Source: a virus
Length of the DNA: 41,129 bases
Strand: one strand, 5' to 3'
Virus record (IMG/VR): IMGVR_UViG_3300036829_000041
Location: 1-41,129 of that record
Part shown: positions 5,124 through 30,609 of the stretch, piece after piece
How positions within the stretch are numbered: position 1 is the first letter of the stretch
Layout of the letters: every line of letters starts with the position of its first letter
Notes under the pieces: model-generated
Database searches by the model: none
Seen by the model: only the letters and a program-made list of their open reading frames with translations
Told to the model about the DNA's origin: nothing
Program-made: the position numbers and the translations under genes

Positions 5124-5223
5124 GCGCCCTCCTGTATGAGTCGTGAAGCGGTTACACGTCCCCCCACGGGGCACGTCAGAACGGCTCCTGCGGCGTGGCC
5201 GCCAGAGCCCATACACAGGACGT

Positions 5224-9754: not shown

Positions 9755-10795
9755 TCAGTTAAGGACCTGGAACAGTTGCGCCCCGGCCGAGCCAGCCGAA
9801 CCGGCCGCGCCCGTGCCCACGCCCGAGCCCGCGCCGCCGGGCGCCACGTTCACCGAACCCGAACCCGTCACCGCCGTCAGCGTGTAAACCAGCACCAGGC
9901 CACCCGAGCCGCCACCCCCGCCACCGCAGTTCCCCGTCGCCGGGGTACCGCCAGCACCGCCCGGCGCCTGAATCGTGCCGTTGTTCACCAGCGCCCAAGC
10001 GACGACGAAGATCGGCCCGCCACCGGCTCCGCCGCCGCCGCCCTTGTTGGTGTTGTCACCAGTCCCGCCGCCGCCGCCTGGGCCGCCGCCGACCACAAAG
10101 ACGTTGGCGAACACCGCCGCCACGCCCAGGACCGGCGGCACCGCCATGTTCGCCACCGAGGCGACGTTCGTCACCGTGCCCGCCGCGCCACCAGCCCCCG
10201 CCGAACCCGCGCCACCAGCCCCCGCGCTGCCGAGCCCAATCGCGTTGGCCTGGCTCGTGCCCGCCGACCCGGCCCCGGTGTTCCCCGCACCACCGGCCCG
10301 GCCACCGGCCAGGGTGCCGCTGCCCTGGGACGCGCCCGCTGTCCCGTTCGCCTGCCCGGCCCCGCCCGAGGCGTCGATGATGCCGCCCGGGTTGATCGTG
10401 ACAGTGCCCCGGCAGAACACCAGCCACCGGCCCGGCCCCGTGTTCAGCGTCACACCGTTATTGATCGTCAGGCTGGTCAGCTTCGCGTTGCGGGTCAGCG
10501 TGTAAACCGATCCGGCCTTGGACGCCCAAGCCACCGTGGCCACCCCGTCCAGGGTGGCCACCCCGTCGGAGCCGTCGCCGAACAGGTTGCCGTAGTTCAC
10601 CTCCGGGAACACCGGCAGCGCCAGCACCGACCGCACGTAATCCATCGCCGCCGACGCGGACAGCCCCGGCGAGCCGAGCGCCGCCGCCAGCGCTTGCGCC
10701 AGTTGCCCGCCCGCGCCGTAGGTGTTCGCCAGGTCGGCCAGCTCGCCCGTGCCCTGATCCACCGGGCGTGTGGGAAGCGGCCAGTACCAGGTCAC
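9755..10795 (-). CDS. Glycine-rich adhesin-like protein
   Basis: 346 residues. The N-terminal 70 residues are helical (LAQALAAALGSPGLSASAAM). Next come parallel-beta-like strands (KLTSLTINNGVTLNTG, TVTINPGGIIDASGG). The remainder is long Gly/Ala-rich sequence with GGGPGGGGG-type runs, of the kind forming polyglycine-II bundles in phage tail-fibre adhesins. Its ATG overlaps the stop of the repeat protein upstream (ATGA). It lies in the head/connector gene block rather than near the tail tip, so a head-attached fibre or decoration is possible. Confidence 0.75.
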   Translation of the reverse strand: MTWYWPLPTRPVDQGTGELADLANTYGAGGQLAQALAAALGSPGLSASAAMDYVRSVLALPVFPEVNYGNLFGDGSDGVATLDGVATVAWASKAGSVYTLTRNAKLTSLTINNGVTLNTGPGRWLVFCRGTVTINPGGIIDASGGAGQANGTAGASQGSGTLAGGRAGGAGNTGAGSAGTSQANAIGLGSAGAGGAGSAGAGGAAGTVTNVASVANMAVPPVLGVAAVFANVFVVGGGPGGGGGTGDNTNKGGGGGAGGGPIFVVAWALVNNGTIQAPGGAGGTPATGNCGGGGGGSGGLVLVYTLTAVTGSGSVNVAPGGAGSGVGTGAAGSAGSAGAQLFQVLN

Positions 10796-14729: not shown

Positions 14730-14962
14730 GCCTTCCCGCCAGCCTTCCCCCCGGCGGACTGGTGCCCACCGACGGAGCTAGCCCCGCCAGGGCCGCCCTT
14801 GTCCTCGCCCTCGTCCTTGGCGGCGGCCTTCTTGGCCTTGGCCTTCTCGGCCTTCTCGGCGGCCTCGGCCGCCACCACCGAACCAGGCCGGTCGTCGGCG
14901 GAGGCATGCGGGTTCGCGCCCTCGCTGTACTCAGGCTGGGTGAACGCTGGGTGCTCGGACAT
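14726..14962 (-). CDS. Lys/Ala/Glu-rich disordered small protein
   Basis: 78 residues. The N-terminus MSEHPAFTQPEYSEGANPHA is followed by a charged helix (AAEAAEKAEKAKAKKAAAKD) and a Gly/Ser-rich tail; composition suggests disorder. It overlaps the 3' end of the methyltransferase gene by 32 nt and has a GGAGGACCGGCG ribosome site. Role unknown. Confidence 0.6.
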   Translation of the reverse strand: MSEHPAFTQPEYSEGANPHASADDRPGSVVAAEAAEKAEKAKAKKAAAKDEGEDKGGPGGASSVGGHQSAGGKAGGKA

Positions 14963-15590
14963 CGCCGGTCCTCCTGAATGAGTCGCTTACCTGCCTGCGG
15001 ATCACTCCCCAGCCGGGGCCGCCCGCATGGATCTCGGAAGTGTCATAGGCCGCCGCCACGCACTCCGCCCACACCCTCGGCACGTCCAGCCGGAACTCCG
15101 GGTGAGGAGGTACCGAGTGGATGTCATGCAGCAAGATGAGGCCGCCTGGCTTCACCAGCGGGCCGTACATCTCCAGGTCGGCCCACACGCCCTCGTAGGT
15201 GTGGTCGCCGTCGATCGCCAGCACGTCCACTAGCGGGCACCAGCGGTCCAGGTTCGTGGCGTACAGGTGGTTGCACAGCCACGCCCGCGCCGCCGGGCTG
15301 TGGGAGTCGCCGACATGCACCTGCGCGCCGTGCCGCTCCAGCGGCAGGCCCGAGCCCCCCGCGTCCTGGCCGTTGTCGGCCAGGGTGATCCCGTACACCT
15401 CGCGGCAGATCTGCCGCCACGCATACAGGGTGCCGCCCCGGTCACAGCCGATCTCCACAATGATCAGCGGCCTGGCCGAGCGGGCCAGCTCCACCACGGC
15501 GGCGAGTTCTTCCGGGTGCTGGCTCGCGCCGTAGGCGAGCGCCTGCCGCGTCACCGGATCATCACCCGAGCCGCCCCACCAGCCGGTCAC
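14931..15590 (-). CDS. SAM-dependent methyltransferase (CmcI/Methyltransf_24-like)
   Basis: 219 residues from a GTG at 15590 that overlaps the TGA of the 57-residue gene before it, with GAGG upstream. Rossmann motif I is LIIVEIGCDRGGTLYAW at about 48-64, and the acidic motif VDVLAIDGDHTYEGVWADLE at about 126-145 is followed by LVKPGGLILLHDIH. This matches the cephalosporin-hydroxylase-type (CmcI) methyltransferase family, whose DGDHTY motif binds metal; members methylate sugars and small molecules. Next to a glycosyltransferase-FkbM fusion, it probably modifies a glycan. The substrate is unknown. Confidence 0.85.
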   Translation of the reverse strand: MTGWWGGSGDDPVTRQALAYGASQHPEELAAVVELARSARPLIIVEIGCDRGGTLYAWRQICREVYGITLADNGQDAGGSGLPLERHGAQVHVGDSHSPAARAWLCNHLYATNLDRWCPLVDVLAIDGDHTYEGVWADLEMYGPLVKPGGLILLHDIHSVPPHPEFRLDVPRVWAECVAAAYDTSEIHAGGPGWGVIRRQVSDSFRRTGDVRAPSVHPA

Positions 15591-15760
15591 AGATCCTCGT
15601 TCCGGCCGCAGCAGAAACTCAGTTGCATCGGGTAGCAGCAGATCTGCCAGCGGTGCATCCGCCCATGCCGGTCCAGGCGGCCGAGGCCGACAACCAGAAT
15701 CCGGTGCCCGCCGAGCGGCAGGTTCATACACGGCGGCCAGAAGAACCGCAGGTGCTCCAC
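15587..15760 (-). CDS. 57-residue protein between the two glycan-modification genes
   Basis: Starts with a GTG at 15760 behind GGAGG, five bases after the stop of the glycosyltransferase, and its TGA overlaps the methyltransferase GTG. Sequence features are an aromatic start (VEHLRFFWPPCMNLPLGG), a basic middle (LGRLDRHGRMHRWQICC) and four Cys in all. No family was recognised. Tight coupling on both sides suggests a partner of these enzymes. Confidence 0.6.
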   Translation of the reverse strand: MEHLRFFWPPCMNLPLGGHRILVVGLGRLDRHGRMHRWQICCYPMQLSFCCGRNEDL

Positions 15761-15764
15761 CGTT

Positions 15765-17678
15765 TCACACCTCCGCTTTCGGCCGGGCAATCGCATACGG
15801 CGCCACCCGGTCCCCGGCCAGGTGCGCGGTGAACGGCTGCACGTCATAGCCCAGTTCTTCGAGCAGGTCGTAAAGCTCGGCCTGGGTGTAGTAGCCGTAA
15901 ATCGAGTGATCTTCGATGAACAGGACCGGGCGCAGCCGGGCCAGCGTCTCCCGCATCCCCCACAGGGCCTTCAGGTCGGCGCCCTCCACGTCCAGCTTGA
16001 CCAGGTCGATCCGCTCCACCTCGTCAAGCAGCGCGTCCAGCGGTATCGCCTCAACCTGCACGCCCTCGCCGTCGGGAACCTCGTCACGCTCGAACGCCTT
16101 GGTCGACCCGCCGGTCACCCGCCGGTTCTTGTCCGCCATGATCAGCTTGTCCGGCACGTCCCACGCGGCTACCTCCATCACCGCGACGTTCTCAATGCCG
16201 TTCAGGGCGATGTGGTAGCGCAGCGACGCGGCCGTGTCCGGCATCGCCTCCACCGCGATGACCTGGCTAGCCCGCCCGGCCAGCCGCAGCGCCCACCGGC
16301 CGACGTGCGCGCCCACGTCCAGCAGCACCCCGTCAGATGGGAACAGCGCGGCGAGCACCGGGGCCAGCGTGTCCTCGTGCCCGACCGAAATCCAGTCGTC
16401 GGTGTGCGGCCCCCTGGCCAGCCACCGCAGCCCGTCCGATTCCACCGTGGGCAGCGGCACCGCCGCCTTGGCAGGTGGCCGCACCAGCGCCGCGCCGCAC
16501 AGTTGCTCCAGCATTTCGAGCGCGGGCTTCCAGTACGTGTTCATCACCAGGTCGGCGTCGTAGCCCTCCGCGAACGCGCGTGCCCGCCGGGCCAGCTTGT
16601 CCCGCTGCGCTGGCTGCCGCGACACCCGGTAAGCCTTCTCCAGCGCCTTCTCAATGGAGGCGATGAACGGCACATACCAGTTCGCCTCATCGCGGGGATG
16701 CCAGTACGGCTGGCAGTCCACCAGCCACCCGGAGCCGCACAGCTCAGTCTGGGCCGAGTTGTCGCCGACGATCACCGGCACGCCGCACGCCTGCGCCTGC
16801 ACCGGGCCGAGGCCGAACCCTTCCCCGTAGGACGGGTTCAGGAACACGTCAGCCAGGCCGGTGATCCGCGACACATACCCCTGCGTGTAGAAGTTGGCAA
16901 CCTGCCCGTAGTCGTCGCTGAACAGCACCGCATCGCCGAGCCCGTAGTGGCGGATCAGCGGGCGCAAGTCCAGGCCGTACCCGTCCGGCGTCGCGGCCAG
17001 AGTGTGCGCGAACAGCAGCGAGTCCGGGTGCCGGTCGTGGAACGCGGCGAACGCCGCCATGACTTCGCCCCACGCCTTACGCGGCGGGTCGGTGCCCTTG
17101 TTCGCGGCCACCATCCCCACCACGAACGTCTCCGGGGAGATCCCGAACCGTTCCCGGGCCGCCTGCCGCTCCTCCGGGGACTGTGGCCGGAACAGCGACG
17201 TGTCCACACCGTGCGGCACATAGGCGGGCTCCAGCCCAGCCGCCTGCATCATCCGCACACCGTGCAGGCTGTAGGAGATCGGGTAGGCGCCGGACAGCCG
17301 GTAAAACAGCTTGTCCCCCCGGCTCATCCCGTGCGAGTGCACCGGGGACCACGCGGCGCAGGCCAGCCCGGCCACGGCCTCCGGGCCGATCGCCCACGCG
17401 TCATAGTGCACCAGCACCAGACCCGGGTCACGGCCGAAATGGTGCACAGCGTGAGAGGCGAGGATGTCAGTGGAGAACGGCGTCATCCCCGGTGGCAGGC
17501 AGGTGATGCCCTCCCACTCGTGCGGGCCGTACCCGCCGCCCATGCACGACAGCACGATGTCCCACCCGGCGTCGCGGATGCGCGGCGCGAACAGCGCCGT
17601 TTCCACCCCGTAACCGGTGTCCGACTGGGGGTCGTTGCTGTGCCACAGCATCTTGGGACGCTGCTTGATCAGTTCCAT
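15765..17678 (-). CDS. Fused GT4 glycosyltransferase - FkbM methyltransferase
   Basis: 637 residues; ATG at 17678 with AGGAG eight bases upstream. Residues ~1-400 are a GT-B fold, family-4-like glycosyltransferase: MLWHSNDPQSDTGYG, FVVGMVAANKG and the donor-site region NPSYGEGFGLGPVQAQACGV. Residues ~415-635 are an FkbM methyltransferase: LLDVGAHVGRWAL, IAVEAMPD and DLVKLDVEGADLKALWG. Together they would add a sugar and O-methylate it. The gene sits between the major capsid gene and the connector genes, so virion proteins are the likely target; some mycobacteriophages are known to glycosylate virion proteins. Target and sugar are inferred. Confidence 0.9.
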   Translation of the reverse strand: MELIKQRPKMLWHSNDPQSDTGYGVETALFAPRIRDAGWDIVLSCMGGGYGPHEWEGITCLPPGMTPFSTDILASHAVHHFGRDPGLVLVHYDAWAIGPEAVAGLACAAWSPVHSHGMSRGDKLFYRLSGAYPISYSLHGVRMMQAAGLEPAYVPHGVDTSLFRPQSPEERQAARERFGISPETFVVGMVAANKGTDPPRKAWGEVMAAFAAFHDRHPDSLLFAHTLAATPDGYGLDLRPLIRHYGLGDAVLFSDDYGQVANFYTQGYVSRITGLADVFLNPSYGEGFGLGPVQAQACGVPVIVGDNSAQTELCGSGWLVDCQPYWHPRDEANWYVPFIASIEKALEKAYRVSRQPAQRDKLARRARAFAEGYDADLVMNTYWKPALEMLEQLCGAALVRPPAKAAVPLPTVESDGLRWLARGPHTDDWISVGHEDTLAPVLAALFPSDGVLLDVGAHVGRWALRLAGRASQVIAVEAMPDTAASLRYHIALNGIENVAVMEVAAWDVPDKLIMADKNRRVTGGSTKAFERDEVPDGEGVQVEAIPLDALLDEVERIDLVKLDVEGADLKALWGMRETLARLRPVLFIEDHSIYGYYTQAELYDLLEELGYDVQPFTAHLAGDRVAPYAIARPKAEV

Positions 17679-17795
17679 CTGCTTGATCTCCTGGCCGGGG
17701 GGAGAGGGAATGTGGGTGCCCCGTGGATCACGGCCGGGGCCACGCCGTCGCGGGAGCCGATCCCCGCACACTCGGCGGTGTAGCTAGGGGTTTGG
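17679..17795 (-). other. Intergenic region after the major capsid gene
   Basis: 117 bp between the capsid stop and the glycosyltransferase start. It holds the AGGAG ribosome site of the next gene and only short imperfect stems (for example GTAGC...GCTAC at about 17779-17798, overlapping the capsid stop). No convincing terminator or promoter was seen. Confidence 0.4.
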
Positions 17796-19304
17796 CTACG
17801 CGGTGCCGCCAGTGCTCCACCGGAAGGCGTTCGCCGCAGCAACATCGCTGCCGACCCTCCAGTAGTAGAACCAGCCCTGGTTGCCGGTCGGCATGTTCGC
17901 CGTACCGGCGCCCTTCAGGAGCGGGTCGAACAGCATCGTGGACCCGATCCTGTCCACGATGTAGAACTTGCTCCAGTCGCCGAACACGGCCGACGCCGCA
18001 ACCAGCGCGGTGCCCGTACCCGGGGTCTGGGTGATCGACGGCGATTCCCTGATCTGCTTGTCCAGCAGGGTCGGCGGGGTGCCCTGGCCCAGGTTGGCCC
18101 AGAACGAGCCGCCGCCGAACTGGTCGATCGTGCGGATGCGGTTGATGTTGGTGATGTTCATGACCCAGCCGACCCGGTCCGACAGGCGGAACCTCGGGCC
18201 GAGCGCCGCGTTCAGCGCCATCACGTCCGCGACACCGCCGCCGTTGGCGCCGCCCGAACCGGCGGTGCCGGTGAACGCCGGAACGGCCGAACCGCCCGCG
18301 AGCACCTTTTGCGCAGTGCCCAGCCGGGTGATGATCCCGAACGGCTGCCCGGCGTTGGCCACGCCACCCGTTCCCCGGGCGAAAGCCGTCTCCTCCAGGA
18401 TGTCCTTGGAGTCCGCGAGCAGGCGGGGAAGCTGGTCGGCGAAGTTCGTGTCAGCGTTCGACTCGAACGACGCGATCACCCACGCCGCAGCCTTCTTCGG
18501 GAACACCTGGATCTGCCCGGCCGTCGGGGTGTTGTCGATGGCCTGGCCGCCTTCATCCAGCCAGCCCATCTGCACACCCGCCGAGTTCACTCCCTGCCAC
18601 GCGTTGGACGTGGTGGTCTTGATCTCGGCCATCGCCCGGTACGGGTTGGTGCTCCCATCCGAGGTCAACACGATGGTCGGGTCAAGCACGTAGGGCAACA
18701 AAAACCCCCCCGACGCGGTACCCAGAGTGAGCGACCGCTGCGCGGCGCGGAGCCCCTCACCCATCGGGTCGTTCAGGTACATCCTGAACGCCTCCACGTA
18801 CTCATCGTGGCCGGTGAGCAGCGCGTGCCGGGCGATCAGCGGGTCGGACATCACCTTGCGCGTGGCCTCTTCCGCCCGCTCGGGCAGCAGCATGCCCCGC
18901 TTGTTGTGCATATCGATGACCGACATCGACCGGGCCACCATGTCGCTGCCGCGCACCAGGCCGTCGCGCACCTTGTCCAGCTCGGCGAACGGGTCCAGGC
19001 GCGTCATGAACTCAGGCGTTCCGCCGCCGCCCCACGACGACCGCGACGCCTGGCCGGTGGCACCCGGGTCGTAGCCGGACTCGCGCGAGCCGCCAGCGGT
19101 GCCGCCGTCGGACCGCTGGATGAGCTTGATCTTCTCCATCCGCTGAAGCACCGGCTCCTTCAGCTTCTCGATCTGCTCATACTCGTCAATGAGCGTGTCC
19201 CGGATGTTGCCGTCGCCCTCCTCGGTGGTCGTCGGGTCGGCGTCCATCTCGGACAGTTCGTTGCGGATCGCGCTCTGGCGGTCCAGCATTTCCTGGAGCC
19301 TCAC
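17796..19304 (-). CDS. Major capsid protein (HK97 fold) with N-terminal scaffold domain
   Basis: 502 residues from a GTG at 19304 after GAGGGGGAG. The first ~70 residues are a charged coiled coil (LQEMLDRQSAIRNELSEM), typical of the delta scaffold domain, presumably removed by the protease encoded just upstream. Hallmarks of the HK97 family are SLTLGTASGGFLLPYVLDP at about 193-211, FPKKAAAWVIASFESNAD, QLPRLLADSKDILEETAFAR and a C-terminal FGDWSKFYIVDRIGSTM. A local GGGGGGGTTTTTG stretch (plus 18700-18711) uses codons unlike the rest of the gene. Confidence 0.95.
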   Translation of the reverse strand: MRLQEMLDRQSAIRNELSEMDADPTTTEEGDGNIRDTLIDEYEQIEKLKEPVLQRMEKIKLIQRSDGGTAGGSRESGYDPGATGQASRSSWGGGGTPEFMTRLDPFAELDKVRDGLVRGSDMVARSMSVIDMHNKRGMLLPERAEEATRKVMSDPLIARHALLTGHDEYVEAFRMYLNDPMGEGLRAAQRSLTLGTASGGFLLPYVLDPTIVLTSDGSTNPYRAMAEIKTTTSNAWQGVNSAGVQMGWLDEGGQAIDNTPTAGQIQVFPKKAAAWVIASFESNADTNFADQLPRLLADSKDILEETAFARGTGGVANAGQPFGIITRLGTAQKVLAGGSAVPAFTGTAGSGGANGGGVADVMALNAALGPRFRLSDRVGWVMNITNINRIRTIDQFGGGSFWANLGQGTPPTLLDKQIRESPSITQTPGTGTALVAASAVFGDWSKFYIVDRIGSTMLFDPLLKGAGTANMPTGNQGWFYYWRVGSDVAAANAFRWSTGGTA

Positions 19305-19361: not shown

Positions 19362-21272
19362 TCAGGACAGTTCGATACCGGCGGCCCGCAGCGCCTCCTC
19401 GGCGCGGAGGCGGTACAGCCGGTTACCGGTGGAACGGGACACGTTCTCCTCTTCGGGGGAGCCGCCGTGGCCTGTGTCGGCCGACGTGTCCTCCTCCTCC
19501 CACTCCTCCTCGGTGAGGAGAGAGCCGGGAAGCTGCATGCGGACGCCCAGCACTTCAGCGCCCGAGTACGCCGCGAACGGCGTAAGCCCGTACTCGCGCA
19601 GGCCCAGCACCAGCCGCTTGACCCGCTGGAGCGCGCCGCCGTAGGCGCGGCGGTACTTGTCACCGGGGCCGCGCAGCGTCGGGTCCGAGCGGACGATGCC
19701 ACCCGTGAACGACTGGCTGCGCAGCGCGCCCATGTTGACCAGCTCCAGCAGCTCCTCACCGAGCGGCGTGTTCGCGTACTCGGTGCGGGTGAGCAGGCCC
19801 TTGGACTCGGACGAGATGTGCTTGGCCACGCCCGCCGGGAGGGAGAACCGTTCGGCCGGGGTGCCGTGCACGGTCATGCCGTGGTTGTAGAGGCAGGTGG
19901 CGTTCCAGAATCCACGGTTGCGCTCGGGGGAGATCGCCCGCAGCACGTCGCTGAACGCACCCCGGTCGATCTCCTCCTCGTAGTGGCCCTCGTGGTCCTT
20001 GATCTCCGCCGGGGTGTTGTAGATCGCTGCGTACGCCTCCACCACCCGGCCCGAGGCGTACTCGCCGCCCTCGGAACGGGACATGATGCGGCACTCCTCC
20101 AGCGGCCAGTACCGGAAGATCTCACCGGCCGTGGCCGCCCGCATCGCCGGGGCCGGGCCGCCCTTGCCCTTGCGGGCACGCTGCGCCAGCGCACCGAACT
20201 TGCTCTTGCCGTACTTGGCGCGGCCGATCTTCGCCGCCAGAGCGCCCGGGTTGTTGATCCCCTTCGCGGCCAGCTTCGCCTTGAGGGCGGCGAACCGGGC
20301 ACCAGAGCCCAGCTTGGCGGCACGGGACACCTCCCCGGCGTGCCAGTCATTGAAGCCGCTGCCCTCGCTGGCCGCAGCGTCCAGATCTTCAAGCTGAACC
20401 CCGGACAGGTCCGGCAGGTCGTCCAGGCGGTCCCACTCCTGGCTCAGGCCGTCGGCGTCGTACTGGTCGTCCGCCATTGCTGAACTCCTCGCTGCCCCAT
20501 GTCGGGTGCGTGCCTTCATCGCGTCCCATTGCGCGATGTTTTTCGCCGCCGCTGCCTGCACCTCGGCGCTGACCTTGTTGCCCTTGCCGTCGTGGCCCTC
20601 GCTCCAGTTGCGGACGATGCCCACGGCCATCTCGATAGCCCGCGACTCGCCGACCTTGGCCTTCAGGTCATTGGCGAGATGCTGGATATACGGCGGAAGC
20701 TGCCACGTCTTGTGCTTCCACAGCCCCGGCCCGCCGGGCGTGCCCACCGGCTCGTGCACCGTGGACGCCGTGGCCGTCTCCGCCGTCCGCGTCGCGGACG
20801 CGTAGGCACCGACCAGGCCAGGCGCCACCGGCTTGCCCCTCAGCCGCCCCTGGTGCACGCCGAGCGAACTCGGCACAGCCGGGCGGCCTGGCTCGGTCAC
20901 CGCACCCTTGGGGACCCGTGCCAGGCTCTTGCGGATCGCCTCAATGTCGTTCCGGTTGGAGCCGCCCGCGTAGATGCTGTCCAGGTAGGCGGCACCGTCC
21001 AGGTGCCGGTTCGCCGCCGCCAGGTCCCGCCGGGCCACGGCCTTGCCCGCGTTGCGGACATCCGTCGCCGCGTCGGCCATCCCCGGCTGCTGGCCGATCA
21101 CATCAGCCGCCGACATGATCGCCCGCACATGCCCGTCGCCACCGGCCGGGCCGTCAAACGTGAAGTCCGACCCGCCGACATGCACCCACTTGCCACCGAA
21201 GCCCCGGGCCTCGCGCGGGTTGAACGCGCGCTCCATCTGCGCCAGCCGGTAGGCCAGCATGTCGTCAGCCAC
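19362..21272 (-). CDS. Prohead protease (HK97/S78 type) fused to long N-terminal helical and GKW modules
   Basis: 636 residues from a GTG at 21272; an ATG at 21290 is the alternative. Basic family proteases have ~200-250 residues, so this is strongly extended. Visible in order: GKW module (residues ~17-34, NPREARGFGGKWVHVGG); helical segment with VARRDLAAANRHLDGA; helical domain at ~165-250 (LPPYIQHLANDLKAKVGES, AAAKNIAQWDAMKAR); an LGS/AKYGKSKFGAL segment; S78 protease at ~403-570 with GRVVEAYAAIYNTP, catalytic-type His in LYNHGMTVHG (near 464) and Ser in RSQSFTGGI (near 520); acidic C-terminus. It cleaves capsid and probably packaged proteins during maturation. Confidence 0.9.
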   Translation of the reverse strand: MADDMLAYRLAQMERAFNPREARGFGGKWVHVGGSDFTFDGPAGGDGHVRAIMSAADVIGQQPGMADAATDVRNAGKAVARRDLAAANRHLDGAAYLDSIYAGGSNRNDIEAIRKSLARVPKGAVTEPGRPAVPSSLGVHQGRLRGKPVAPGLVGAYASATRTAETATASTVHEPVGTPGGPGLWKHKTWQLPPYIQHLANDLKAKVGESRAIEMAVGIVRNWSEGHDGKGNKVSAEVQAAAAKNIAQWDAMKARTRHGAARSSAMADDQYDADGLSQEWDRLDDLPDLSGVQLEDLDAAASEGSGFNDWHAGEVSRAAKLGSGARFAALKAKLAAKGINNPGALAAKIGRAKYGKSKFGALAQRARKGKGGPAPAMRAATAGEIFRYWPLEECRIMSRSEGGEYASGRVVEAYAAIYNTPAEIKDHEGHYEEEIDRGAFSDVLRAISPERNRGFWNATCLYNHGMTVHGTPAERFSLPAGVAKHISSESKGLLTRTEYANTPLGEELLELVNMGALRSQSFTGGIVRSDPTLRGPGDKYRRAYGGALQRVKRLVLGLREYGLTPFAAYSGAEVLGVRMQLPGSLLTEEEWEEEDTSADTGHGGSPEEENVSRSTGNRLYRLRAEEALRAAGIELS

Positions 21273-21522
21273 CGGCAGCCCGCCTGACATGAGTCACCGG
21301 AACCGGCTTGCCCCCCTGCCCGGTCACCGTTGCCGTGTCCGCGTCGTACCGGCCGAAATAGGACTGGCTGATCGTGTGGCGGCCCGCCGCGCCCTCCACC
21401 CATATGCCGTGCAGGTGCCGGGCGATCCCCACATCGGTCCATGGACCGGCGGCCCGGTAGTGGTGCTGGCTGTAGCCGCGCGAGACGGCCTCCAGCCGGT
21501 GCGTCAGCATGTCGTCGGCCAC
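21265..21522 (-). CDS. 85-residue protein, partial paralogue of the protease N-terminus
   Basis: Starts at a GTG (21522) behind AGGGAGG. The first residues VADDMLTHRLEAV closely match the start of the following protease (VADDMLAYRLAQM), and the ribosome-site DNA is also similar, so one arose by duplication. The rest (GIARHLHGIWVEGAAGRHTI, SQSYFGRYDADTATVTG) is beta-rich and not recognised. Its end overlaps the protease start. Confidence 0.68.
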   Translation of the reverse strand: MADDMLTHRLEAVSRGYSQHHYRAAGPWTDVGIARHLHGIWVEGAAGRHTISQSYFGRYDADTATVTGQGGKPVPVTHVRRAAGG

Positions 21523-21668: not shown

Positions 21669-23423
21669 CTACGCGGACTGGACCTGGCCCTCGGCCGCCG
21701 ACACCAGCGACTCGGCCGCACGGGCGGCCACATCGGCGCCAACACCGCACACCTTGGCCACCAGCGTCGTCATCGCCTCCACCACCTGATCCCGCACCGA
21801 CGCCATGTCCGCCCGGCCGATGCTCTCGGCCGCCTTCTTCCGCGCCCGGTGCTCGCCGATAGCCGAGATCAACTCGCCGCCGATCAGCGGCCCAACCGCC
21901 ACCCCGGCCTCGGCCAGCGGCGGAACCGCCATCCCGGCCGTGGCGACGATCAGCACACCGACCGCCACCAGGCCCAGCACCGTGGCCACCGTGCGGATGA
22001 TCGCCTTGCGCCGCTCAGCCTTCAGTTCCTCCGCCGTCTTGCCCGCAATCTTCTCGGCGGCGATCCGGTGCTCCTCGGCGCGCATCTGCTCCACCACATC
22101 CCGCAGCTTCGACGCCTGCTCGGACCGCAGCCGCGTGTCGTTGACCGAGATCTGGGCGCGCAGGTCGGAGATCATGTTCATGAGTTGCGCCGTGGACGGC
22201 TCACCCTGCGCCGGGGACTGCGGCAGATGGCTCGTACCGATCAGGCCAGCCACCGGGGACGCGCCGTGAATCCACTTGCCGTCCGGGCCGCGCCGCTCAC
22301 CAGGGTCGTACGCCCGCAGCAGGTACTCCAGCGGCTCCCAGTCCAGGCCGCGCGACACCGGGTTGTCCCCCGCGTCCCCGGGCACGTCCGGGTTCGAGCC
22401 CACCGCGCTGCCGTCGGCCGTGCCGTCGTCCCCATCGAACGGTTCCTGGGCCGCGTCCGCCGCCGACCGCCACTGGCCAGGCCCAGCCCAGTGCACGCCC
22501 TCACCCAGGTCCGGCAGGTCGGCTGTCATCCGGCTAGCTCCCTCGGCCACGTGCGGCGCGAAGAACCCATCGCCGCTCTTGAAGTGGTAGGCGCCGCCGA
22601 TCGCGTGGGTGTAGGCGCCGATCTGCTCCACCTCGGGCACGGAGTCCACAACCACCACCGGGTCGATGTCTACCCGGTTGTTGTCGTCGTCGTGGAAGAT
22701 CCCGAGGTAATGCTGGGCCTTGTCCAGTTCGCCCCGGAACTCCACCCGAGCCCGGTCCATCGCCGCCCCGAAATCGGCCTGGGACGCGTCCTCAGGCACC
22801 GAGATGGTGTGGATGCCGGGCGGCTTCACCGACAGCGCATACCGGTCCGCGTCGGAAGCGAGCGGCTTGCCCGTGGCGGCGTCAATCGTCATGCCGCCCC
22901 ACGGCTTGCGTACCTCCGCGAACGCGGCAGCCTTCAGGGTCGGCCAGTTCCGGTCCAGGCCCTCCACGCCGTCCCGCCGCCGGGCCAGCCCGGCCAGCTT
23001 GCCCCGCCCCGCCTGGGCGATCGTCTGGAACTCCGACAGGGACACGGCCCGCGAGTTGCCCCGCGCCTCGGCCGCCGTGATCGGCTTCACTCGCGGCGCC
23101 AGCTTGCGGACGGACGGCAGCCCGGCCATCCCGCCACGGGTCCACTTCCCCGACGGGTCGCGCAGCTCGTTCACATCGAACCGCCGCGCCTGCCCACCGA
23201 ACACGACCGGGTTAGCTGCGCTGGTGGAGTAGATCACGTAGCCGTTCGTCCACCCGTCCAGTTGGCTGACCGCCTCATCCGGGGTCGCGCCCTGGGCGAT
23301 CACCTGCTGAACGAACCGCAGCATCACCGGATCGCCGCCCGGCTGAAGCTCCCCACCCGAGACGGTGACCTGGCCGCGCAGCGGCCTGCCGCCGCCCACC
23401 GGGAACGCGCGCAAAGTCGCCAT
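21669..23423 (-). CDS. Multi-domain virion-type protein with two GKW modules and a membrane segment
   Basis: 584 residues; its start overlaps the stop of the kinase-bearing gene. Order: N-terminal domain (1-80); GKW module at ~81-98 (RFDVNELRDPSGKWTRGG); domain at ~165-300 with GGMTIDAATGKPL, YLGIFHDDDNNRVDIDPVVV and IGAYTHAIGGAYHF, resembling a small domain recurrent in actinophage proteins; acidic linker; second GKW module at ~371-389 (AYDPGERRGPDGKWIHGAS); coiled coil at ~415-470; hydrophobic membrane-like span at ~476-500; Ala-rich C-terminal helices. Location between portal and protease suggests an internal or injected virion protein. Function unknown. Confidence 0.78.
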   Translation of the reverse strand: MATLRAFPVGGGRPLRGQVTVSGGELQPGGDPVMLRFVQQVIAQGATPDEAVSQLDGWTNGYVIYSTSAANPVVFGGQARRFDVNELRDPSGKWTRGGMAGLPSVRKLAPRVKPITAAEARGNSRAVSLSEFQTIAQAGRGKLAGLARRRDGVEGLDRNWPTLKAAAFAEVRKPWGGMTIDAATGKPLASDADRYALSVKPPGIHTISVPEDASQADFGAAMDRARVEFRGELDKAQHYLGIFHDDDNNRVDIDPVVVVDSVPEVEQIGAYTHAIGGAYHFKSGDGFFAPHVAEGASRMTADLPDLGEGVHWAGPGQWRSAADAAQEPFDGDDGTADGSAVGSNPDVPGDAGDNPVSRGLDWEPLEYLLRAYDPGERRGPDGKWIHGASPVAGLIGTSHLPQSPAQGEPSTAQLMNMISDLRAQISVNDTRLRSEQASKLRDVVEQMRAEEHRIAAEKIAGKTAEELKAERRKAIIRTVATVLGLVAVGVLIVATAGMAVPPLAEAGVAVGPLIGGELISAIGEHRARKKAAESIGRADMASVRDQVVEAMTTLVAKVCGVGADVAARAAESLVSAAEGQVQSA

Positions 23424-26263
23424 CAGAACTGCCCCGTCTCGGTCGCCCGCCGGAACTCGGCCAGCCGCGACAGCACGCCGTTGTACCAGTCGCCCCGGCC
23501 CGCGTCAGTGAACTGGCCCTTCACGTGCTCCAGCCGCTTGCCGATCTCGTCCAGCTCAGCCACCGAGATGGCGTCGCTGCGGTGATGCTCCAGCGCCGTA
23601 TCGGCCGCCTGAAGGAACGGCGAATCCCAGCCGCCGCCCTGGATGCCGAACGTGGACGAGTGGTCGATCGGCACCGGGTTGCCGTCGGCATCGAACCCGT
23701 AGTTGTGGTAGTGCCGGTCGCTGTTCTGCGTCAGGTAGTCCAGCAGGCCGATCCGGTACGACTGCGGATTCATGAACGTGTCAGGCGACGAACTGAACGG
23801 GTCGCCGTAGTCGATACCCCGGTCCGACAGCCAGTTAGCGGCTATCTCCATGTCCTTGAACTGCATGTAGATGTCATCCGGCGTATCACCGCGCACCACC
23901 GCAGGCGCCCCGGTGCCGCCGATCACATCCGCCACCTGCCCAGACAGGTACTCGGCGTCCGCCAGGTCCGCTGGGGAGAAGTCCCCGCCCTGATCCCAGG
24001 ACAGGTAGGACTTGTGCATCACCCGCTCGCCGTCGTTCAGCGTCAGGAACTCCGCCTCGGACTGCGCCCCGCCGACACCCTCCTCATCGGTGCTCCTGAC
24101 CCCCGATTCAATCGAGTGAATCAGGGACACCTCTTCAGGGGTGACACCTTTCCCGAGCACCTGCACCCGCGACTCGCCCTCAGGCGCAAGCGCAGACGAG
24201 GGCACCTGGACGTGCGGCGCCGAGCCCGGCGGCAGGGAGTCCCCGGCCAGCAGCCTGGCGTTATCCGACTCCACCACCCAGCCGAACTGGCTGTTCCACA
24301 CCAGCCCAGCGGCCTTGGCCCACTCCGGGCGGTGATCCGGCTCAGGCCCAGCCGCGAACTGCGCACCGAGGCCGCCCGCGCCGACCCGGGCGCGGCCGCG
24401 CGCCACCTCCGCGCCGTCCTTGAAATCCTTCGGCGTCATCGCCGCGAGCCGGTTGCGGTAATCCACCGGGGACTCGGACACGTGCGGCGGCCAGAACCTC
24501 AGCATCTCGGCCGCGTTCGGGTAGTCGCCTAGCGGGCCTTGCGCGTTGCGGATCAACCCGAACGCGATCTGCGTCACCGCCTCGTCCATGTCCTTCGGCT
24601 GCGGCCCGTTCATCGCCGGGTCGGCCGGGGTCATGAGCGGCTGAAGCTGCCGGTCCGGCTTCACATTCGTTATGTGCGGCGGCTTCCCCGGCGTCGCCAG
24701 GCTCGGGATCGTCCCGCCGCCGATGGCGTGGTTCCCATGCCCCGGGCGGGCCGTGGTGGTGGACACCAGGTTGTGCGGCATCGACATGCCATAGATCCGC
24801 CGCCGGTACGCCCCCGCGCTCTCACCCGGCCGTGGCGGGAACCGGTCATAGATCTGCGCACCGTTCAGCGGGCGCGTCTCCCCCGGGCCGATCACACCGG
24901 GCAGGCTCGCCGCCAGATCGTCGGCCGCGCGCTGGTGCTGCGCGAACGCTGACGAGAACAGGTCGACCTTGGCCGCGCCGCCCAGCACCTCGCCCTTGCC
25001 CGTCACCGTCTGCACACCGACGATCCCCGGGCCGATCATCTTGTGCTGATGCACCCTGGCCGTGGCGTAATGCTTCACCCCGGACTCGGGGAAGATGCTG
25101 CTGCCAGCGATCGGCCGCAGATACACGCCGCTGCCCTTGTCCGGCGGCAGGTTCACCCGCCCAGCCTGGCCAGGCGCCTGAAGCACCATGTGCTTGTGGC
25201 CCCGGAACTCCACCACATCACCCGGCTGAAGATCACCCGGCTGCTTGAAGTACGGGGCAACCGGAATCCACCCGTGCCGGTAGTGGTACGGCGTCCCCGG
25301 GATGTGGTGCCCGCCAGCCGCCGCCCGGACGGCCTCACCTTTTGGGTCGGCGTCCGCCAGGTCGGCCAGCCGCTCCGCCAGCCCCCACCGCGAGAACCGG
25401 GCAACGCCACCGGTCCACACCCGTGGCGGCTTAGGCTCAGCCGCCAGCATCGCGGCCAGGTCCCCCGGTCCGCCTTCAAGCCCGAGCATCGCCAGCCCCA
25501 CATGAGTGGCAGGCGCCTCCATCCCCGGCGGGATATGCCCAGCCAGGCTGGCCAGCTCCTCCGGGGTCATCGGCTGCGGCTCCATCAGCCCAGCCAGGTG
25601 CCGGTCAATCGCCACCACGTGACGCTCGCCGCCGCGCATCGTGGCCGCCTGCCGGTGCGCCGACGCCAGATGCCGGATCGCGCCCTCACGGTCGCCGTGC
25701 CGCAGCGCCGACGCAGCCCGCCTCGCTGCTACCGCGCTCGGGTGATGCCCGATCTCAGACGCCAGCTTGTCCAGGTGCCCCGCCACCGCAACCCACTTGC
25801 CGGTGTGCGGGTCACGCGGCTGGCGCGGGTTGAACGCCCGTGCCGCAAGGGCACCGGCCAGCTCCCCCGCCAGGGACTCACCGAACGAGCTGCCCCCGTT
25901 GTACTTGCGCAGGTGGTGGTGGTGGCCCTTGATCTTGTGGTGATGGCCCTTCATCCGCTTGCCGGGCATCGCCGCCGCGTGCCGCTCCGCCTCGGCCAGG
26001 TTGGCCTCCGCGCCGTGCGTGTCACCCTTGCGCAACGCGTCCGCCGCATCGTGCAGATGGGCTGCCGCCGGGGCCAGCGCGCCCGCATCGTCCACCTTGG
26101 CCGTGCCGCCCAGGAACGCGTTCACAAAGTGCTCGTGCTGCACCTCGTTGGCCAGCGCGTCCAGCTCGCCAGCCTTGGCCGCCCACTTGCCCCCGGGGTC
26201 GCGGGGATGCAGGCGCGGGTTCCAGAACGCCCGCTCAGCCTCATCCCACGCGATCCCGTGCAC
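23423..26263 (-). CDS. Portal-adjacent polyprotein with C-terminal PI3/4-kinase/HipA-like kinase domain
   Basis: 946 residues from a GTG at 26263 behind GAGGGAGGG. Two GKW modules: residues ~13-30 (WNPRLHPRDPGGKWAA) and ~144-162 (FNPRQPRDPHTGKWVAVAG), each followed by a helical hairpin of the pattern A..ALR.GD..GA..HLA.A. A His-rich linker (~105-118) lies between. The middle has PYHYRHGWIPVAPYF and QPGDVVEFRGHKHMVLQAP. Residues ~735-935 look like an atypical kinase: strand Lys in VMHKSYLS (751), Glu in LADAEYLSG (771), catalytic loop NSDRHYHN (D849, N854) and metal-site IDHSSTF (D867), i.e. the PI3K/PI4K DRHxxN plus IDx signature. The portal-adjacent position usually holds packaged MuF-like proteins. 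Substrate unknown. Confidence 0.82.
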   Translation of the reverse strand: MHGIAWDEAERAFWNPRLHPRDPGGKWAAKAGELDALANEVQHEHFVNAFLGGTAKVDDAGALAPAAAHLHDAADALRKGDTHGAEANLAEAERHAAAMPGKRMKGHHHKIKGHHHHLRKYNGGSSFGESLAGELAGALAARAFNPRQPRDPHTGKWVAVAGHLDKLASEIGHHPSAVAARRAASALRHGDREGAIRHLASAHRQAATMRGGERHVVAIDRHLAGLMEPQPMTPEELASLAGHIPPGMEAPATHVGLAMLGLEGGPGDLAAMLAAEPKPPRVWTGGVARFSRWGLAERLADLADADPKGEAVRAAAGGHHIPGTPYHYRHGWIPVAPYFKQPGDLQPGDVVEFRGHKHMVLQAPGQAGRVNLPPDKGSGVYLRPIAGSSIFPESGVKHYATARVHQHKMIGPGIVGVQTVTGKGEVLGGAAKVDLFSSAFAQHQRAADDLAASLPGVIGPGETRPLNGAQIYDRFPPRPGESAGAYRRRIYGMSMPHNLVSTTTARPGHGNHAIGGGTIPSLATPGKPPHITNVKPDRQLQPLMTPADPAMNGPQPKDMDEAVTQIAFGLIRNAQGPLGDYPNAAEMLRFWPPHVSESPVDYRNRLAAMTPKDFKDGAEVARGRARVGAGGLGAQFAAGPEPDHRPEWAKAAGLVWNSQFGWVVESDNARLLAGDSLPPGSAPHVQVPSSALAPEGESRVQVLGKGVTPEEVSLIHSIESGVRSTDEEGVGGAQSEAEFLTLNDGERVMHKSYLSWDQGGDFSPADLADAEYLSGQVADVIGGTGAPAVVRGDTPDDIYMQFKDMEIAANWLSDRGIDYGDPFSSSPDTFMNPQSYRIGLLDYLTQNSDRHYHNYGFDADGNPVPIDHSSTFGIQGGGWDSPFLQAADTALEHHRSDAISVAELDEIGKRLEHVKGQFTDAGRGDWYNGVLSRLAEFRRATETGQF

Positions 26264-26273
26264 AAGCCCTCCC

Positions 26274-27773
26274 TCACTTCTTCGGACTCCCGTTGGCGTT
26301 CGCGTTCCCGGTACCGCCGCGCGCCCCCAGCGGCAGCGACGGCAGCGCCGCCGCCGCACCCGGCTTGGCATTCGGCACGTTCGGGGCCGTCGCCCCGGCA
26401 AGCTGCTGCGGCCTGCCACCCTGCGGCGGCCTCCCGGCCGTGTTCCCAGCCGGGCCGCCGGTCGGCGGCTGCTGCATCTGCCCGCCCGGCCCCAGCCGCT
26501 CGGTAGCGGTCTCCCGCCCCGACACACCCGGAGGCGGCGCATCCGGCGACGGCACCAGCAGCGCCAGGTCGCCCGTCTCGGCCGCCTTGACCGCCGACTG
26601 CCGGGTGAACCCCGCCGCCACCGACGACGCGAGCCCCTGCGCCTTGACCAGGAACGCCTGTGCCCGCTGCAACTCGCCCTCGCGCAGCGCGGCGATGCCG
26701 CCCACGTCGTACCACAGGCGCACCGGCACCTCGGGATTCGCCATCGGCCCCGGGATCAGGTGCTCCAGCGACGCGCACAGCATCCGCCAGTTCGGCCGCG
26801 CCCACAGGTCCGCCAGCTCGCGGATCGCCTCCTGGTAGCCGCCCTTGTCGAACCCGCAGATCACCAGCAGGCCCGGCCCCGCCGCCGCGCACACGCGCCG
26901 CTCACCGGCCTTGGACACCGCGTCGTACTGCAACTGTTCGAGCGTCGATCCGGCCACCGCCAGGTCGGCGCCCTCGTCCAGCACCAGCACGTTCCCCGCG
27001 TTCTCCGCGCCGCCGTACTTCGCCCGCACCCGCTTGCGCAGCGTGTCGATCGTCTTGTTTGACAGCTTCACCGCGTACTTGATCACCAGGCCCGGCATGG
27101 CGCCGTTGTCCAGGTGGAACGTCTTGTACTCGGTCAGCTTGGCGTCCGACCGGACATCGGACAGGATCGGCGTCAGCCACGACATGCCCCGCCACGCCGC
27201 ATCCGGGTCCACCAGCGGCGCAAAATGCCCCACCTCTTCGGTGGTGAACATCTGCGGCTCGCGGCCCGGCCCCATGTCCTCCAGGTAGCCGATGGGCTGC
27301 TTCCACGTCCGGCCCAGATCGTCGGCCAGCTCTTGGCTGATGATCGTCACCTTTTCCGGCACCATCCGCACCAGCACCGGATCGCCGCCCCCAGCCGGGA
27401 CCGCCTTGCGGAAGTAACAGTTGCCCATGCTGCCGTCGTTGCACGCCCGGCCGAGCAGGTTCCCGCTGTCACCGTTCGGCCACGGGTGCTCCAGCAGCCG
27501 CAGCGACGTGTCGCCGAAAATGTGCCCGTCGTCCAGCGCCTCGAACTGGAACCGGGCCTCGGAGAACAGCCATTGCTTGACGGCCTCGCACGCGAACACG
27601 ATCCCGTTCTGCCGGTACGCCTGCCGGGCCAGCCGCACGATCCCCTGCGGCGAGCCCTCCCGGCCTTGGCCGGACACGTCCAGCCCGGTGGCGTACTCCG
27701 CCCCGGTGTAGTAGTTCTCGTTGTAGCCAGGCTGGTCGGCGCGCGACAGCCAGCGGTCGATCAGCCGCGTCAC
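26274..27773 (-). CDS. Portal protein
   Basis: 499 residues. The dodecameric portal forms the vertex through which DNA enters and leaves the capsid. HK97/actinophage-type features are IVRLARQAYRQNGIVFACEAV near the N-terminus, LLEHPWPNGDSGNLL, VRMVPEKVTIISQELADD, EVGHFAPLVDPDAAWRGMSW, the helical stem region KLSNKTIDTLRKRVRAKYGG and AVSKAGERRVCAAAG. The last ~100 residues are Pro/Gly/Ala-rich and disordered, longer than in many portals. Ten bases separate it from the polyprotein. Confidence 0.93.
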   Translation of the reverse strand: MTRLIDRWLSRADQPGYNENYYTGAEYATGLDVSGQGREGSPQGIVRLARQAYRQNGIVFACEAVKQWLFSEARFQFEALDDGHIFGDTSLRLLEHPWPNGDSGNLLGRACNDGSMGNCYFRKAVPAGGGDPVLVRMVPEKVTIISQELADDLGRTWKQPIGYLEDMGPGREPQMFTTEEVGHFAPLVDPDAAWRGMSWLTPILSDVRSDAKLTEYKTFHLDNGAMPGLVIKYAVKLSNKTIDTLRKRVRAKYGGAENAGNVLVLDEGADLAVAGSTLEQLQYDAVSKAGERRVCAAAGPGLLVICGFDKGGYQEAIRELADLWARPNWRMLCASLEHLIPGPMANPEVPVRLWYDVGGIAALREGELQRAQAFLVKAQGLASSVAAGFTRQSAVKAAETGDLALLVPSPDAPPPGVSGRETATERLGPGGQMQQPPTGGPAGNTAGRPPQGGRPQQLAGATAPNVPNAKPGAAAALPSLPLGARGGTGNANANGSPKK

Positions 27774-28514: not shown

Positions 28515-28662
28515 CGGTGGTGGACTTCAGCCACAACTGCTCAGCCACCCCGTATACCTTGCGGGCACCGAACTCTGCCACCAGCGCCGCAACGAGCCGC
28601 TTCAGGTTCTCCTCCCGCTCCACGGCCCGGCTGTTGCTATCACCTGCACCACCTGCGCTCAC
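28507..28662 (-). CDS. 51-residue helical protein between terminase and HNH
   Basis: A GTG at 28662 overlaps the TGA of the large terminase (GTGA), and the stop overlaps the HNH start. The product has a small Gly/Ser N-terminus and an amphipathic helix (NLKRLVAALVAEFGARKVYG) ending LWLKSTTDE. Unrecognised; coupling suggests a packaging accessory. Confidence 0.6.
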   Translation of the reverse strand: MSAGGAGDSNSRAVEREENLKRLVAALVAEFGARKVYGVAEQLWLKSTTDE

Positions 28663-30173
28663 AGCGCCCACGCTCCCGGTTCGCTCACCTCGTCCGGCGC
28701 CTCACGGTCATGCAGCCACCGGGCGTTCGTTACTGCCACAATCGGGGCGATCTCGATACCGGAGATCCGCCGCCCCCACGCCTCCCCGGCGTCGCCCACC
28801 GTACGGGTGGACGCGCCCATGAGCGCGAGAGTCAGGTCATCCTGGCCACGGTGGAACAGGTCATGCCCGGCCATCACCGAGTTGTAGAACCCCGAGTAGG
28901 CCGCCGCCACCTCGGCCGTGCCCATCCGCACCACCGGCAGATGCGCCCGCTCCAGCGACGGGATGCACTCGGCCTCGAACGCGCCCCGGTCGACCGCGAT
29001 ACCGCAGCATGTGCGCCCCCGCTTGCGCGCCTTCGCAATGATCGCCTTCAGCCGTGGCAGCAGCGCCGTGGTGTCCAGCAGGTCGGCGATCTCCACATGC
29101 CAGCCGTGGTCCCTCGGCCGCCGCCCCGCCAGGCCGATCGCCGCCCGCTTCTTGTCCCACGTGTAGACGACGGACAGGGCAAACGTAGACCCCGGGTTGG
29201 ACTTGGCGTCCAGGCCAGCCGCCCACTCCAGCAGCGGGATCACCTGGCCCTGCCCCGGCGGCTTGTCATGCCAGCCCATCCGCTCGCGGCCGAACTCGTG
29301 CGGCGGCATATCCCGCCGCTCAGCCGTCTGGATGAACTCCAGGTCGATCCGCCGGTCCAGCGCCGGGTTCCCCATGCGGATGAACTCGGGCTTGTCACAG
29401 CCGCAGCCCGGTGTGTCGAGGTCATGCGTGCACCGGCTCCCACGATCGCAGGCGATCTCCGGGGGCGGAGCGCACCACTCGGCGAACATCAGCCGCCGCT
29501 CCAGCAGCGCCGCACGTGGATCTGTCGCCGCCGCCCGCCCGCGCTCAATCAGCGGGTGCAGCACCTCGGAATCCTCATGCGCCGCGCTGGAGCCGTAGAC
29601 GATCTGCGGATCGCCCGTGATCGACCGGGCGCTCATCGTGGGCGTCAGCGACCCGACATGCGTCGCCCGCAGCTTCCACGCCTCGTCCAGGATCACCTTT
29701 TCCCCGGTAAGGCCACGGCCGCCGCCCGGCGTCCTCGTCTTGAACAGCATCCGCCCGCCACGGCGGGTCACGATCTCCATGTCCCGCTGCGCCCGGTTGA
29801 TGCTGCGCATCTGCCGCGACAGATACGGCGAACCGGCAATGATCTCGTCCAGGCCGCGGAACGACTCGGTGACCTGATCCCACTCGTGCGAAGTCCAGAT
29901 GATCGGGTCGATGTGGAACAGGAACAGCCACCCGAGCGCCGCCATCTTCTCAGTGGATGTCTTGATGTTCTGGCGGCACGCCAGGATCGCAATGGCGAAC
30001 GCCACGCTCTTACCCGCAGCCGTCTTGGCGAAGATCCCGTCCAGGAGCATCCGCTGCTCGCCGTCCGGCGAGTAGCTGGCCCCGTCGCACAGGTCCGCTA
30101 CCGCAGGCCCCTCGGTGCGGAACGACTCGGCCAGATGCCAGTAGGCAGGCTCAACTAGCTGAAGCGTTGCCAT
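28659..30173 (-). CDS. Terminase large subunit
   Basis: 504 residues, the packaging ATPase and nuclease. The ATG at 30173 (MATLQLVEPAYWHLAESF) has GAGAAG upstream. Walker A-like FAKTAAGKSV at ~48-57, Walker B GEKVILDEAW at ~157-166, then the nuclease half with STFALSVVYTWDKKRAAIGL, an acidic CCGIAVDRGAFEAEC strand and a C-terminal GQDDLTLALMGAS. Length and motif order fit actinophage large terminases. It is coupled to the small terminase-like gene and flanked by HNH. Confidence 0.93.
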   Translation of the reverse strand: MATLQLVEPAYWHLAESFRTEGPAVADLCDGASYSPDGEQRMLLDGIFAKTAAGKSVAFAIAILACRQNIKTSTEKMAALGWLFLFHIDPIIWTSHEWDQVTESFRGLDEIIAGSPYLSRQMRSINRAQRDMEIVTRRGGRMLFKTRTPGGGRGLTGEKVILDEAWKLRATHVGSLTPTMSARSITGDPQIVYGSSAAHEDSEVLHPLIERGRAAATDPRAALLERRLMFAEWCAPPPEIACDRGSRCTHDLDTPGCGCDKPEFIRMGNPALDRRIDLEFIQTAERRDMPPHEFGRERMGWHDKPPGQGQVIPLLEWAAGLDAKSNPGSTFALSVVYTWDKKRAAIGLAGRRPRDHGWHVEIADLLDTTALLPRLKAIIAKARKRGRTCCGIAVDRGAFEAECIPSLERAHLPVVRMGTAEVAAAYSGFYNSVMAGHDLFHRGQDDLTLALMGASTRTVGDAGEAWGRRISGIEIAPIVAVTNARWLHDREAPDEVSEPGAWAL

Positions 30174-30609
30174 GCTTCTCGCGCTGCCTGGCCACATCGT
30201 CGGCGGCCCGCTTGGCCACCCCGTCCTGAAGCGCCTCCACCGGGTCGCCCTGCCGGGCCTCGGCCAGCGCCCGGTCCATCGCCAGCGCATGTTCCTTGAT
30301 CATCGACGCGAGAGCCGAGCCCGTCTCCGCGCCGCCCCGGTCGATCCGCGCCGCGAGCACGAGCGCCGCCTGCCCGGCCCACGTGTCCACCCGGTCCACC
30401 GCCTCAAGCGCCCGCCGCGTCGTCCGCCCTAGCTCGGACGCCACCGCCACCGGCACCCGCCTGCCACGGCCCGGCCCAGCCGGGGTCGCCTCACCCAGCC
30501 GACCGGCGCGGCTGGCCCGGACAGAGCATGCCTTGTCGTGGTACTTCGCGTTCTTCCGCTTCGCCTCGAACACGATCCCGCAGTCAGGCCCCTGGCAGAT
30601 CATCTCCAT
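30151..30609 (-). CDS. Putative terminase small subunit with N-terminal zinc finger
   Basis: 152 residues overlapping the large terminase start. The N-terminus MEMICQGPDCGIVFEAKRKN continues to YHDKACSVRASR, giving a C-x4-C...H-x3-C zinc-finger-like cluster. The rest is helical (RRALEAVDRVDTWAGQAALVL, SMIKEHALAMDRALAEARQG). Position directly before the large terminase suggests DNA recognition for packaging. The zinc finger replaces the usual helix-turn-helix, so the assignment is mainly by context. Confidence 0.7.
   Translation of the reverse strand: MEMICQGPDCGIVFEAKRKNAKYHDKACSVRASRAGRLGEATPAGPGRGRRVPVAVASELGRTTRRALEAVDRVDTWAGQAALVLAARIDRGGAETGSALASMIKEHALAMDRALAEARQGDPVEALQDGVAKRAADDVARQREKHGNASAS

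Follow-up and report, generated by a model that had tools for sequence, protein, structure and literature searches.

A PI4K/CtkA-class kinase domain beside the phage portal, probably a mobile effector module of phage heads

Introduction

Most known effectors injected by phages are ADP-ribosyltransferases or nucleases, with a small number of kinases, and Helicobacter pylori CtkA is a small bacterial kinase acting outside its maker. Here we analyse a linear IMG/VR virus record (IMGVR_UViG_3300036829_000041; 41,129 bases, G+C 69.5%; this whole stretch is called the window), whose head operon carries, first after the portal gene, an open reading frame (ORF) for a protein of 946 amino acids (aa) that ends in a kinase domain of the type II phosphatidylinositol 4-kinase (PI4K)/CtkA class. 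Effectors at the C-terminus of phage head proteins are already described in passages of PMC5512222 and PMC5576092, and the kinases treated in the passages of PMC5512222 belong to other groups: shortened protein kinases (Verrucomicrobia/Chlamydia, Bacteroidetes phages) and zeta toxins. A PI4K-type effector is not mentioned in passages of the MuF/polyvalent-protein and polymorphic-toxin literature (PMC5512222, PMC5576092, PMC3482391). A few phage genes already bear PI3/4-kinase names. In our best reading, the kinase domain is probably a mobile effector module that travels in the head and enters the host together with the DNA.

Results

Fold and active site of the kinase domain

A sequence-only reading of the window had assigned the end of the 946-aa protein (window 23423-24070) to a PI3/4-kinase or HipA-like domain, and the motifs and numbering that it quoted are exact on the minus strand (K751, E771, D849, N854, D867). 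The features of the domain are listed below; conservation refers to an alignment of 23 viral copies, which are 19-32% identical to the window.

23423..24193, minus strand: kinase domain, residues 691-946 as modelled (fold from about residue 697) plus the stop codon (AlphaFold, PDB matches, family alignment)
24011..24013, minus strand: K751, N-lobe strand lysine (VMHKSYL), at least 90% conserved
23951..23953, minus strand: E771, helix-C glutamate (ADAEYL), at least 90% conserved
23702..23725, minus strand: catalytic loop NSDRHYHN, N847-N854; N847, D849, R850 and N854 invariant
23663..23665, minus strand: D867, metal-binding aspartate of PIDHSSTF; I866 and D867 invariant

The AlphaFold2 model built on this alignment is a high-confidence bilobal kinase fold (predicted local distance difference test, pLDDT, 90.7; predicted template modelling score, pTM, 0.89), and a model from a 4-sequence alignment reached a pLDDT of just 37. 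The proposed start of the domain needs one correction: the fold begins earlier, at about residue 697 (window ~24175). Fold comparison by Foldseek and VIA-align 2 gave the following Z scores: PI4KIIbeta 16.3, CtkA 16.0, Fam20 13.5, actin-fragmin kinase 12.0, VPS34 11.3 and HipA 10.7, with the whole domain (about 220 residues) aligned to PI4KIIbeta and CtkA. The sequence-only assignment is supported, type II PI4-kinase and CtkA being nearer than HipA. The sequence profile agrees, its best match being PI4K2A (1.6e-5), and none of the HipA Pfam families was matched among the 23 members at 0.01. RIO, PRPK and Fam20 folds were considered as the nearest class and rejected, since their matches either have a lower Z or cover just part of the domain; a single-sequence search of the PDB with the domain returned chance matches only. 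In a viral structure library the fold was also matched in the Gordonia phages GodonK and Sixama, in HHTV-1, in an uncultured 'portal protein' and in a Mycobacterium phage Onyinye protein annotated as an ADP-ribosyltransferase.

Taken alone, the window domain scores below the curated cut-off of PF00454 (E=3e-4, 21.2 bits against 27.1 bits), which would suit a chance resemblance or a dead remnant. This single-sequence score is weak on its own, and the comparative evidence is decisive: against a leave-out profile of the 22 other viral copies the window scores 150 bits (E 4e-45), compared with a maximum of 5.1 bits in 1000 shuffles, which rules out chance resemblance. PF00454 was matched by 19 of the 23 members at E<=0.01, some passing the cut-off (Micromonospora phage pMLP1, 29.7 bits; locus L059, 30.8 bits). 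The catalytic set is complete in the window (strand Lys, helix-C Glu, NxDRxxxN loop, metal-binding ID), and eight alignment columns are invariant, D849, N854 and D867 being kept without exception. The sequence-only reading had named two outcomes that would refute it, a predicted structure other than a bilobal kinase and homologues lacking these three residues, and neither occurred. With the 150-bit score, the pLDDT and a complete active site, chance or decay is next to impossible, and the domain (residues ~697-946) is a complete atypical kinase domain with an intact active site, structurally of the type II PI4K/CtkA class.

Relatives and their place beside the portal

A tblastn search with the last 221 residues against 2.3 Gb of phage DNA found gp82 of Microbacterium phage Pumpernickel (3e-11), a 2235-aa protein encoded two genes past the Pumpernickel portal, together with weakly related halovirus 'phosphatidylinositol kinases'. 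Through Pumpernickel we reached pMLP1, in which the presumed portal is immediately followed by an ORF that carries Phage_min_cap2 (1.7e-75) and then PF00454; this step gave further viral contigs, and an eight-sequence alignment led to 26 IMG/VR loci. When IMG/VR and 84,980 genomes were scanned for patterns of the window domain by itself, no relative emerged; scans with window-Pumpernickel and Pumpernickel queries likewise found none, and the window query had no match in plasmids.

Of the 10 loci tested, 8 have a portal as the first or second large gene upstream of the kinase (L071 and L075 gave none), and these portals come from four PHROG families: 104, 533, 12/2662 and 776. In L057 a small gene stands between portal and kinase gene, the gene immediately ahead of the kinase in L062 has matches to portal/virion structural families as well, and L064 has the order of the window: portal, kinase, protease. 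In other relatives the kinase is part of the structural protein itself: L058 encodes a portal whose own C-terminus is the kinase; L063 joins portal, NUDIX, minor-head and kinase in one protein; L054 has MuF and kinase; L052 and L059 have VG15 ahead of the kinase (in L059 below its cut-off); and L055 has Phage_min_cap2 ahead of it. The portal-adjacent setting pointed out by the sequence-only reading is thus borne out by the window and by these fusions. The same reading knew of no standard actinophage structural gene with such a layout: we too found no description of these kinases as a module recurring beside portals or as a virion effector, in a literature search lying outside most subscription papers, and other phages share the layout.

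The kinase also keeps the company of toxins: an ADP-ribosyltransferase exoenzyme gene adjoins the kinase gene in L073, and a zeta toxin lies in the same 1751-aa polypeptide as the kinase in L071. Among 12 kinases the portal family switches 7 times on a weakly supported tree, a frequency in keeping with a mobile module. The kin virus L001, whose portal is 54% identical to that of the window, showed no kinase domain in the 38 kb covered, and by this absence the kinase gene is accessory. These observations bear on a kinase that would act inside the particle, phosphorylating proteins of the head or tail while the particle assembles or matures. The fusions to portal and minor capsid proteins and the place of the gene within the head operon are what such a kinase would predict; the absence from L001, the changes of portal family on that weak tree and the toxin company fit cargo better, and we consider a role in assembly very doubtful.

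The head operon and the short tag

The head operon lies on the minus strand in the order terminase, portal, 946-aa protein, 584-aa protein, S78 protease and HK97-type capsid:

28659..30290, minus strand: terminase large subunit (phrog_9 4e-38)
26274..27773, minus strand: portal protein (PF04860 7e-15; phrog_12 1e-16)
23423..26263, minus strand: 946-aa ORF, a long variable N-terminal part and the C-terminal kinase, first after the portal (ORF, translation)
21669..23423, minus strand: 584-aa partner gene, overlapping the kinase-gene stop, with two tag copies; no known domain matched
19362..21290, minus strand: S78 prohead protease (PF04586 3e-6; phrog_80 1e-12)
17796..19304, minus strand: major capsid protein, HK97 type (PF05065 2e-25)

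The 946-aa ORF starts with GTG 10 bases past the portal stop codon, preceded by a GGGAGGG ribosome-binding stretch, and its TGA overlaps the ATG of the following gene (TGATG); because of this spacing and overlap, the portal, 946-aa and 584-aa genes look translationally coupled. The N-terminal part of the 946-aa protein gave weak Pfam matches to YfdX and HRDC, which were set aside because they score below cut-off and fall on an alanine-rich helical stretch. PADLOC gave no match for the window.

Three consecutive proteins of the operon share a short tag, for which we use the pattern [FY][ND]....R(D/G)..GKW:

26183..26203, minus strand: tag 1, RDPGGKW, close to the N-terminal end of the 946-aa protein
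25793..25816, minus strand: tag 2, RDPHTGKW, in the 946-aa protein
22272-22292 and 23142-23162, minus strand: two copies in the 584-aa partner
21186..21206, minus strand: tag 5, RGFGGKW, at the N-terminal end of the S78 prohead protease

The window holds 5 copies and shuffled proteins average 0.007, a count that, like the comparison across phages, is descriptive, the pattern having been chosen after viewing the data. In L062, L064, L071 and Pumpernickel the kinase protein begins with a tag-like element, L071 having one ahead of most of its modules, and in L065, L066, L068, L070, L073, L076 and L077 it begins with GPGGGRFR or a variant. By hypothesis, the tag is possibly a head-loading or cleavage signal; as a loading signal it would make the selection of head cargo by tailed phages easy to approach.

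Several further observations concern these proteins. The 584-aa partner (window 21669-23423) contains LGIFHDDDNNRVDIDPVVVVDSVPEVEQIGAYTHAIGGAYHF. The 1751-aa protein of L071 (L071:6543-11798) lies past a portal-sized ORF and combines kinase, DUF7178 and zeta toxin; four RDxxGRW-like elements precede these modules or separate them. L066, L068, L070, L073, L076 and L077 show runs of consecutive ORFs with a common N-terminal RWPxGTPVAPxGxGPGGGRFR and differing C-terminal domains (kinases, ADP-ribosyltransferase, unknowns), an arrangement resembling an array of head-cargo cassettes.

Elsewhere in the window, a glycosyltransferase-FkbM methyltransferase fusion (15765-17771) and a methyltransferase-like ORF (14931-15731) lie between capsid and tail genes, and L001 likewise has glycosyltransferase- and aminotransferase-like ORFs past its capsid gene, which suggests glycosylation of the virion. 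A 705-aa protein (10792-12909) consists in part of many degenerate AGLASxTGxAP repeats, with a 60-base DNA repeat at 11511-11647, and a tape-measure-like 993-aa ORF (2235-5216) has a C-terminal end that, judged by eye, resembles a lytic transglycosylase (EMREAGYSLTARNPSSGAYGMAQF).

Bacterial copies at the ends of giant proteins

In a profile search of 395 actinomycete-class genomes, the domain formed the final ~240 residues of giant frames, 1447-9001 codons in length. The one giant protein scanned whole (2451 aa) has a WXG100_2-like start (E 9e-5, below the family cut-off). In other genomes the domain is internal to giant frames, sometimes present twice and sometimes with catalytic residues lost. 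Three kinase-containing uninterrupted frames of actinomycete genomes, L086 (G593:C1:2523175), L088 (G111:C82:62143) and L087 (G652:C22), extend over 33,513, 20,955 and 8,166 codons, one of them with two kinase copies; if these frames are genes, their products would be among the largest bacterial proteins.

The kinase could be an exported antibacterial toxin of the MuF polymorphic type, delivered by the particles to competitors of the lysogen and not in aid of infection. That the same domain ends giant WXG100-like proteins agrees with this, as does the occurrence of MuF toxins in temperate phages (passages of PMC5576092). Against it, no immunity gene was recognised beside the kinase gene and no MuF domain was detected in the window protein, and this use of the kinase seems decidedly unlikely.

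Discussion

We regard it as fairly likely that the kinase domain is an intact effector module of the type II PI4K/CtkA class that is made with the head proteins, packaged, injected and directed at a host target. The 946-aa protein would be synthesised along with the head proteins, enter the head near the portal (with the portal itself or through the tag), be carried in the particle and reach the cell with the DNA or just ahead of it, where the kinase would phosphorylate a host target, most likely a protein, favouring early infection. The analysis shows the fold, the full active site, the place of the gene in the head operon, the recurrence of the domain as a C-terminal module of portal and minor capsid proteins, and its occurrence in giant WXG100-like proteins; packaging, injection, kinase activity and the protein target are what we infer. 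Of the terms used in the sequence-only reading, 'polyprotein', carriage in the virion and delivery to the host are inferential as well.

A protein target is favoured over a lipid, even though lipid kinases are nearest in sequence, because the nearest bacterial fold precedents, CtkA and HipA, act on proteins. A virion-borne lipid kinase, phosphorylating phosphatidylinositol in the host membrane, would draw on type II PI4-kinases being nearest in both sequence and fold and on pMLP1 and Pumpernickel infecting actinobacteria, which, unlike most bacteria, contain phosphatidylinositol. However, the protein kinase CtkA has the same Z, identity to PI4KII is about 14%, and the halovirus relatives are called phosphatidylinositol kinases by annotation alone; we judge a lipid kinase unlikely.

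Several points weigh against the packaged and injected effector that we prefer. Pfam and PHROG scans detected no MuF, portal or minor-capsid domain in the 946-aa protein, so that its virion status would follow from position, tag and relatives; catalytic residues are lost in some chromosomal copies (L050, L086); and L001 may be an incomplete contig, which limits the weight of the absent kinase. A far wider proposal, in which a widespread family of head-borne phosphoinositide kinases would remodel the phosphatidylinositol of the host membrane as infection begins and the RDPxGKW-like element in front of modules would be a general loading or cleavage signal for interchangeable effectors, is of low probability.

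Comparison with known systems

The closest systems differ from the phage kinase in distinct ways. Type II PI4-kinases (PI4K2A/B) share the fold (4.1 A over 220 residues at the Z of 16.3), the K, E, D, N, D set and the motif RLxxLDxxxxNxDRxxxNW...IDxGLAF; they differ in the low identity noted above and in the head context of the phage domain. CtkA is alike in fold, but it is a stand-alone protein, whereas the phage kinase is a C-terminal module of head proteins. HipA kinases share the general atypical kinase fold, unlike in their Pfam families, and no HipB-like partner gene was recognised, the neighbours in the window being the portal gene and the 584-aa ORF without known domain. The halovirus 'phosphatidylinositol kinases' (HCTV-6 gp16, HSTV-2 gp16) align in their catalytic residues and are encoded between head and tail genes, but they are very divergent (22% identity) and belong to another virus group; no virion proteomics of HSTV-2 was found in the literature.

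MuF polymorphic toxins and polyvalent proteins, as described in passages of PMC5576092 and PMC5512222, are alike in being portal-side head proteins with a C-terminal effector, and the relatives L054, L052 and pMLP1 carry MuF, VG15 or Phage_min_cap2. Polymorphic toxins bear a variable C-terminal domain on a long carrier protein (passages of PMC3482391), and the kinase-ended giant proteins of actinomycetes resemble them in this respect. To these systems our analysis adds a recurring PI4K/CtkA-type kinase module common to phage heads and giant polymorphic-toxin-like bacterial proteins, with cultured examples (Pumpernickel, pMLP1) in which its packaging and activity can be tested.
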